From Desulfobulbaceae bacterium (GTDB taxonomy: Bacteria > Desulfobacterota > Desulfobulbia > Desulfobulbales > Desulfobulbaceae), in NCBI GenBank assembly GCA_015489765.1, contig WFZC01000139.1, positions 1-55,577 of the forward strand: a stretch of DNA of 55,577 bases. The letters are read 5' to 3'. Under the pieces are notes generated by a model. That model saw only the letters and a list, made by a program, of their open reading frames with translations, searched no databases and was not told where the DNA came from. Shown piece after piece: positions 1 through 2,569 of the stretch. Position numbers and translations under genes: made by a program. The first letter of the stretch is position 1. Every line of letters starts with the position of its first letter.

Positions 1-1
1 A

Positions 2-2569
2 TGGAGTGTTGCCCGATTAACAAAATATGCGCATCCATATCTCTTTCAACAAACTCCACGTGATGATATCGAAAGGCTCTTTTTTCTTTTCCAAACCCTT
101 GGACCTCTACAAAAATACCATGGGTCGCAAGGGGAAATTACATTAACTGTAAATTCTAAGGGAAAACAGATAATCACCGGAAATTATACCGCCCGTGCCA
201 CTTTTCAGAATGGAGATGCGACAATTCAGGTTGTGATCATCAGAGAAAATGAGAAATGGAGCATTTCCAGCTTTGTTGTCAACTCTGAGTCATTTCAAAA
301 AAAAGCGATTCAGGATACAGGCCAAAAAGATAAAAAATTGTCCAGAACTGAACTGGAACAAAAAGTGGCGGAAATTCTGTCACAAAATACCATCCAAAAA
401 AGACGAAATGTTGAATTTGTCTTTCAGCTGGCAAAAATTTACCGGAAAGAGGGAAAGATAAAAAAGGCGATCCCCCTGTACGAGAAAGGACTGCAGGTCG
501 ATGCCTCTGATTTGCACAAACAATTTCTGCTTGCCCAATTGCTCCTGAAAAATAATCGCCGCAATGATGCTATCCCTATCCTGCAAAATATTTTCGAATT
601 CTCGGAGGACTGGCCATTATGTCAACAGAGCGTGAATCTGCTGAAAAAACTTCATGCAGAGATACCGGATACCGCTCCACAAAAGAAAATAGCATATAAT
701 AAAGTCAAAGTGCTGCTTGTTCCCATTGGTAATCCGAATAAACAGCTTCTACTCGAATTGAGATCGGCCCTGCAGAACGAACTGGGTATCCAGATCTCCA
801 TTGCCAAAGAATCGATCAATCCCGGCAAATTCGACATACGACTATCCGACAAATATATTGCTGATATATTTAAAAAAATTACAAAAAACCTCTCAAAGCT
901 CCAGTTCGATGAAATTACAAACAAACTCAATATAACCAAAGATAATTTACGCTCTTCATTACCACAATCCAGATTTATCCTGTCGTATCTGGATAAATTA
1001 GGACCAGAGGGGATTGCAAGCCGACAACAATTTGAAAAGAACCTTAAAAAATTAAGTACATCGGGACAGTATTATACTGAAACAATCACCAAAAAAATCC
1101 GGCAACGTTTTCCTTTCCGCCTGGATGAACCGATACAAAGTTATATCGGAGTTACAGCGGAAGACATAGGCTGTCACGGCTGCAATTTCCTGTATGGAAA
1201 GACGATAGGTATTTACGGGGCCATTTCTTATTACAGGTTCACGGCAAAATTCAATGGTGAATCGGACAACAGGCCAAGGCTGCTCAAACGACTGTTGAAA
1301 CAGGCCCTTTCCAGCATAAACTTCACCTTCGGAATCCCACGATGCAATACGCCCTATTGCGCACGCGCATTTCCCAATAATTTACAGGAACATGATGCCA
1401 AATCGGAACATCTCTGCAGAATATGCAAGGCCAGGCTGGAGACCTTTAAAAAACATCCCGTAAGCGACACCATGGCTTCCGAATACAGTCATCTTGGTGA
1501 ACGTTATCTTGACAAAGGGAAATGGGAGCGCGCAGTTGAAGCATTTAAAAAGGCGATTGTCAATGACCCCACCCTGGGTCCAGCCTTTGAAGGTTTAGGC
1601 ATTGCCTTGGCCAATATGAACAAATTTACCGAGGCCATAAAGGCATATAAAAAGGCCATTGCCGAATATGAAAAATCAGCAAAAATAAATCCGGGGAAAG
1701 TGTATGAGAACCTGGGCGTTGCCTTTCGGAATGCAGGTCGGAAAAACAAGGCATTTTCAGCATACATCAAGGCGGAGTCCTTAACTGCTGTTTCCGATTT
1801 TACAAATATATTCCTGGGAAACCATTATCTCTCCGAACAACAATATCAAAAAGCCCTGAACGAATTTCTGGCCGCCCGAAAACAAAATCCAGCCAACAAG
1901 GAAGCCGGTTATGGTATTGGCATTGCCTATGTTCATCTGGGAAAGCACCAAAAAGCCATTCCGTATCTTGAAGAAATTCAGTCAGCCTATTCGGATAACG
2001 GAGAATTTTACAGCCTGCTTGGAAGCTGTTATCACGAAACAGGAAAAAAGGACCAGGCAGTCCACTGCTACCGGAAAGCCATACAATTAAACCCAAAGCT
2101 CCCCACCGTCCATTACAATTTTGGATTATTGCTGGAACAGCAAGACCCAGCAGCCGCTGTTGATCAGTTTCAAAAAGCCACTAAACTCAATCCTTCATAT
2201 GTCGATGCCTATACTCAACTTGGCATAACCTATGGGAAACTGGGACGTCTGTATAAATCAATCGGCTCATTACGGGCTGCACTGAGTTTATCCCCGAATG
2301 ACGCAACCATACGAAACAACTTGGGATACACCTATTACCTGCAAAAAAAATACAACAGGGCAATACAGCAGTACGATAAGGCCATCCACCTCAAGCCGAA
2401 ATTTGCCCTTGCCCATTATAATAAGGCCATTGCGCACTATGCCCTGAATGAGTTTGACTCCGCCATCAAACACTTTGATATTGCCAAAAAATTACATTAT
2501 CCCTGCTCAAAAAAATTTGAGGCTGCACTGGCAATTCATCGTTCAGATATTACGGAAGGGTCTCAATAA
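2..2569 (+). CDS. TPR protein with degenerate archaemetzincin (M54-like) domain, 5' end outside window
   Basis: The reading frame is open from base 2, so the gene starts before the window; a GTG at 233 is internal, not the start. About 855 residues are visible. In order: a small domain ending near 290 that resembles NTF2-like DUF3887/DUF4019 folds (weak call); one or two TPRs (about 410-640); an archaemetzincin-like domain (about 690-1460); and about ten TPRs (1480-2540). The archaemetzincin call rests on the GVTAEDIG and NFLYGK segments and on the tail C-x4-C ... D-x-K-S ... L-C-x-x-C. The zinc motif HExxHxxGxxHC aligns without gaps to SSINFTFGIPRC (1310-1345), so all three zinc His and the catalytic Glu are lost while the four structural Cys remain. 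I infer a non-catalytic binding or scaffold protein. Its partner and cell location are unknown. Confidence 0.8.
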   Translation, partial: WSVARLTKYAHPYLFQQTPRDDIERLFFLFQTLGPLQKYHGSQGEITLTVNSKGKQIITGNYTARATFQNGDATIQVVIIRENEKWSISSFVVNSESFQKKAIQDTGQKDKKLSRTELEQKVAEILSQNTIQKRRNVEFVFQLAKIYRKEGKIKKAIPLYEKGLQVDASDLHKQFLLAQLLLKNNRRNDAIPILQNIFEFSEDWPLCQQSVNLLKKLHAEIPDTAPQKKIAYNKVKVLLVPIGNPNKQLLLELRSALQNELGIQISIAKESINPGKFDIRLSDKYIADIFKKITKNLSKLQFDEITNKLNITKDNLRSSLPQSRFILSYLDKLGPEGIASRQQFEKNLKKLSTSGQYYTETITKKIRQRFPFRLDEPIQSYIGVTAEDIGCHGCNFLYGKTIGIYGAISYYRFTAKFNGESDNRPRLLKRLLKQALSSINFTFGIPRCNTPYCARAFPNNLQEHDAKSEHLCRICKARLETFKKHPVSDTMASEYSHLGERYLDKGKWERAVEAFKKAIVNDPTLGPAFEGLGIALANMNKFTEAIKAYKKAIAEYEKSAKINPGKVYENLGVAFRNAGRKNKAFSAYIKAESLTAVSDFTNIFLGNHYLSEQQYQKALNEFLAARKQNPANKEAGYGIGIAYVHLGKHQKAIPYLEEIQSAYSDNGEFYSLLGSCYHETGKKDQAVHCYRKAIQLNPKLPTVHYNFGLLLEQQDPAAAVDQFQKATKLNPSYVDAYTQLGITYGKLGRLYKSIGSLRAALSLSPNDATIRNNLGYTYYLQKKYNRAIQQYDKAIHLKPKFALAHYNKAIAHYALNEFDSAIKHFDIAKKLHYPCSKKFEAALAIHRSDITEGSQ

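Follow-up and report, generated by a model that had tools for sequence, protein, structure and literature searches.

Archaemetzincins (peptidase family M54) remain poorly understood, and CarG is the one well-studied bacterial relative, a non-proteolytic regulator. In Myxococcus xanthus, this M54 protein is inactive and has CarD as its binding partner (PMC8156234; PMC9304148). Two archaeal archaemetzincins of known structure had no activity on standard substrates, and the four Cys of AfAmzA form a zinc finger (both from PMC3427221); this Cys4 site is a structural one in AmzA and in CarG. In the open-access archaemetzincin literature, covered mostly as titles and abstracts, no TPR fusion is described, and the open-access literature on pseudoproteases together with TPRs gave nothing related. 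A first-pass annotation of the DNA that we analyse here had called a pseudoprotease within a TPR protein an undescribed architecture. Within the titles and abstracts just mentioned, this holds for the TPR fusion; it does not hold for inactivity as such, as inactive M54 proteins are known (CarG, NF033824).

Gene, contig join and domain order

The window is the whole stretch of DNA that was analysed, 55,577 nucleotides from a Desulfobulbaceae bacterium (contig C139). It starts mid-gene: an open frame at 2-2569 on the forward strand runs past its left end, and the 3' 93% of the gene lies at 1..2569 (+), with the rest of the coding sequence upstream on another contig, C278. The first 69 bases of the window are identical to the end of C278, and the join of the two contigs is based on sequence only, namely on this 69-base overlap, on the frame being kept and on the signal peptide that is gained. 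The upstream sequence, which the first-pass annotation had proposed to obtain for the true start, gives a GTG at L009:9310 on C278, soon after an in-frame stop, and a full coding sequence of 918 amino acids with a signal-like N terminus.

Along the protein, a predicted signal peptide and the N-terminal domain are followed by about three TPRs, a dead M54 domain and a further array of about ten TPRs. The predicted signal peptide, MKIFFRQQPIIFRISIKILALCLFLSPLFSPKYSIAF, is encoded on C278 and precedes the N-terminal domain (2..340, +), for which a Pfam search found no match. The window protein has a signal-like N terminus, judged by eye, as do all five relatives whose N terminus is complete, and it is on this call that the 918-residue protein is predicted to be exported. 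The N-terminal TPR segment (353..667, +) is drawn from a TPR_14 match at residues 139-180 and from an alignment with the relative L056, which shares it. The C-terminal array (1484..2506, +) is matched by the Pfam families TPR_1 (181.7 bits, 9 stretches) and TPR_2 (177.3 bits, 10 stretches), both above the Pfam cut-offs. Behind the gene, parts of the intergenic segment 2658-2835 recur at nine other sites of this genome with 73-84% identity, and by these matches it is a dispersed intergenic repeat.

An archaemetzincin domain and its lost active site

The region at 692..1459 (+, residues 294-549) is, by its homology, an M54 archaemetzincin domain, which bears out what had been read from the letters at 690-1460. 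Indeed, PF07998 matches the window protein with 39.5 bits (cut-off 24.4), and the archaemetzincins of the PDB (3zvs, 4axq, 3lmc and 2x7m) match it by sequence with E values of 4e-9 to 1e-7. The NCBIfam model NF033823 gives 70.7 bits, below its cut-off of 145, and NF033824 (non-proteolytic archaemetzincin-like protein), which we take to be the family of CarG, gives 43.9 bits against a cut-off of 250. Profile-profile and structure comparisons, which the first-pass annotation had put forward as checks, both lead to M54. The hhalign comparison gives a probability of 99.3% (E 4e-20) for the match between the profile of the dead family and that of the canonical M54 proteins of the same phylum. The AlphaFold2 model of the domain (pLDDT 92.5) was compared to 4axq with VIA-align (Z 23.0, rmsd 1.7 over 161 residues), and this predicted model reaches Z 22.7-23.4 with all four listed archaemetzincin entries and about 14 with other metzincins. 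The M54 fold of the dead domain is thus a predicted one, and the model is not fully independent, because its input alignment included canonical M54 proteins, which favours the M54 fold; unlike the model, the PF07998 and PDB sequence matches came from the single sequence. A full-length structure prediction from the single sequence was unsuccessful (pLDDT 42). By both the alignment and the model, the domain contains an insert of about 80 residues, mostly helical (812..1063, +), which is absent from canonical M54.

The former motif HExxHxxGxxHC now reads SSINFTFGIPRC (1310..1345, +), in an alignment without a gap. All three zinc-ligand His and the catalytic Glu are lost, just as the first-pass annotation had stated, and no HExxH was found across the whole 918 residues. 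In the Met-turn, C-A-R replaces C-x-M, so that Arg stands in place of the Met; this loss, the helical insert and the true start on another contig come in addition to what had been noted before. The four structural Cys, the D-x-K-S turn and the NFLYGK segment had been described as kept, and they are indeed seen in the alignment, as is S-x-x-R. The retained Cys4 zinc-finger cysteines are, in full-protein numbering, C511, C516, C535 and C538 (1343..1426, +), with codons at 1343, 1358, 1415 and 1424. At every canonical M54 locus that was inspected in the phylum, HExxH and the third His are present.

Relatives, selection and spread

The whole-genome search covered the window's own phylum, and seven relatives were found, all in this phylum, which makes eight dead proteins with that of the window. 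A scan of genome contigs gave the same-genus relative only (L011, which lies at the same site, upstream of hemC, and matches the last 578 residues with 93% identity; its contig begins inside the gene), and alignment-based searches added six more (L027/L056, L012, L024, L025, L026 and L067). Plasmid records (searched by tblastn) and viral contigs contained no relatives. In an evenly drawn sample of the phylum, 4 of 395 genomes carry a relative besides the window's genome, and in the window's class the dead protein is found in 3 of 258 genomes, window included; a second even draw from the phylum was made up of nearly the same genomes. The collected homologues have the loss of the motif in common: HExxH is absent from all eight members, the loss is gapless, and an Arg occupies the third zinc-ligand His position in each of them.

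These proteins fall into type A (the window, L011 and L027) and type B (the other five). Type A keeps the Cys4 ligands and type B retains one Cys of the four. In type A, where the overall identity is about 38% (L027/L056 is 38% identical to the window protein over the M54 domain), the dead-site letters are conserved as SS..F.F.IPRC, the former Gly being F or D, and in type B, KELVPASLK is invariant at the dead site. In a tree, the eight dead proteins stand on one side of a branch against 41 canonical M54 proteins (support 99/95), and masking the 12 motif columns does not break up this group (SH-aLRT 90), with long branches making the depth of the grouping less certain. The canonical frames that were aligned are short single-domain proteins with no evident signal peptide. 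Two further observations can be recorded here. Directly ahead of the NFLYGK strand, the window (at 1172-1183) and L011 have an extra CxxC (CHGC); L027 and type B lack it. One genome, G278, has both a dead TPR-linked M54 gene (L056 8466-9722) and a canonical one (L058 3476-4300).

The placing of the pseudoprotease between TPR arrays, as first annotated, stands for the window protein; its relatives share the N-terminal TPR stretch only. In L056, a protein of 418 residues, a signal-like segment precedes two or three TPRs, and the dead M54 domain closes the chain; its identity to the window protein is 37% across 386 residues, and it scores 42.6 bits against PF07998. In type B, the signal peptide is followed by an N-terminal domain of another kind, then by helices that resemble TPRs and finally by the dead M54 domain. 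When the profiles of both types are compared, 339 columns align, from the TPR stretch through to the end, and together with the layout of L056 this makes TPRs followed by a dead M54 domain appear to be the arrangement common to the relatives. The C-terminal array of about ten TPRs belongs to the window protein, and neither L056 nor type B shares it.

Strong purifying selection acts on the C-terminal half of the M54 domain (1136..1459, +; 108 codons), which differs from that of L011 by 1 amino-acid change and 7 synonymous codon changes (dN 0.004, dS 0.106), whereas the C-terminal TPRs have 27 amino-acid-changing and 23 synonymous codon differences. Changed residues number 1 in 108 in this half and 41 in 470 elsewhere (p 0.003), which makes it the most conserved part; the contrast in substitution type between M54 core and TPRs is borderline and comes from one genome pair (Fisher p 0.053). 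Pairs within type B have a dN/dS of about 0.05-0.1, and the frames are open in every relative. The dead domain is thus maintained, given the few amino-acid changes in its M54 half and the low dN/dS of type B.

The dead M54 domains of L012/L057 and L025/L054 are 90% identical over 193 residues, yet their dS is about 1. L012 is from the same family as the window's genome and L025 from another class; this likeness, together with the scattered occurrence, suggests horizontal transfer, with which it fits. The sporadic distribution points in turn to an accessory function. A conserved gene neighbour was sought in the flanking ORFs of the loci, and no common family was found, except for the same-genus synteny. 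In G058, the type B copy lies in an array (L057 7293-15000) of single genes parted by near-identical, regular repeats (eight of about 105 nt and seven of about 186 nt). This array resembles a cassette array, and a putative integron was considered from its regular repeats.

Proposed function and comparison with known systems

As seven relatives share the loss and are nevertheless under strong selection, the dead enzyme has probably taken on a new role as a binding module. We propose, with moderate confidence, an exported and probably periplasmic TPR scaffold whose dead M54 cleft binds a peptide or protein without cutting it, since export is predicted and the score for the CarG type is far too low. 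The dead archaemetzincin domain would sit between the short N-terminal and the long C-terminal TPR arrays, with the Cys4 zinc still stabilising its C-terminal subdomain. The former substrate cleft, with its Arg at the third zinc-ligand His position, would hold a peptide or protein segment uncut, and the TPR arrays would recruit further partners, so that the protein might assemble or sense an envelope complex. A bolder version, which we regard as an unlikely one, is that of a hitherto undescribed family of exported pseudo-archaemetzincins that turned the three-His site into an Arg pocket for a peptide, on a TPR scaffold, and spread horizontally in the phylum; the feature recognised by such a pocket would perhaps be a carboxylate or a C terminus.

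The main rival to binding by the cleft is that the M54 domain is a mere structural spacer or stability element, with all of the function in the TPR arrays and a cleft that binds nothing. No ligand is known, the Cys4 zinc is structural in relatives (PMC3427221), most of the Cys are missing from type B, and the two types have different residues in the cleft; however, no part of the protein is better conserved between two related genomes than the C-terminal half of the domain, and the dead-site letters are conserved within each subgroup, which leaves this reading somewhat unlikely. The protein could also be a regulator like CarG, bound to one dedicated partner as CarG is to CarD, since CarG, itself an inactive member of M54, acts by binding tightly to a protein (PMC8156234; PMC9304148). 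We find this improbable: CarG, in which HQx2Hx2Ex2HC and the Met are retained, binds two zincs, is transcriptional and always adjoins carD, whereas the window protein is predicted to be exported, has no conserved neighbour and falls far short of the CarG-type cut-off.

Pseudoenzymes often regulate their active relatives, and the coexistence of a dead and a canonical gene in G278 would agree with the dead protein acting as a decoy or inhibitor, in competition for the substrate of an active archaemetzincin. This is nevertheless very unlikely, as a search of the window's genome (97% complete) gave no second M54 match up to E 1, and as the aligned canonical proteins are short, single-domain and devoid of an evident signal peptide. 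The disappearance of all catalytic letters could finally be that of a decaying pseudogene, or of a protein still active through other residues. We give almost no credit to either, since every relative has an open frame and the rest of the protein is free of HExxH; decay is rejected on a dN/dS well below 1.

The binding scaffold that we favour can be set against three kinds of known proteins. The TPR scaffolds MamA and PrsT (NF040959, TIGR02917) have a comparable TPR array, the window protein scoring 157.8 and 124.4 bits, both below the cut-offs; this similarity is generic, and we know of no M54 domain in either family. The likeness to the archaemetzincins AfAmzA (3zvs/4axq), MkAmzA (2x7m) and MlAmzA (3lmc) extends to the predicted fold (Z about 23), the strand and helix order, the Cys4 site and the NF[VIL][FY]G and S-x-x-R segments. 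Unlike them, the window protein has no zinc-ligand His, catalytic Glu or Met-turn Met, and it has the insert of about 80 residues, the TPR fusion and the predicted export. With CarG, it shares being an M54 relative with the Cys4 ligands kept, CarG being non-proteolytic. CarG has lost only the Glu, to Gln, and keeps three His, whereas the window protein has lost every catalytic and catalytic-zinc ligand; CarG is small and partners the transcription factor CarD, whereas the window protein carries TPRs and is predicted to be exported. The pseudo-archaemetzincin is thus already known as a kind (CarG, NF033824), and what is new here, within the literature covered, is a TPR-linked lineage, exported by prediction, without the catalytic zinc site. 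It is a natural test of which parts of the M54 fold matter after catalysis is lost, and, as a second inactive M54 lineage next to CarG, it suggests that this fold was co-opted for binding on more than one occasion.
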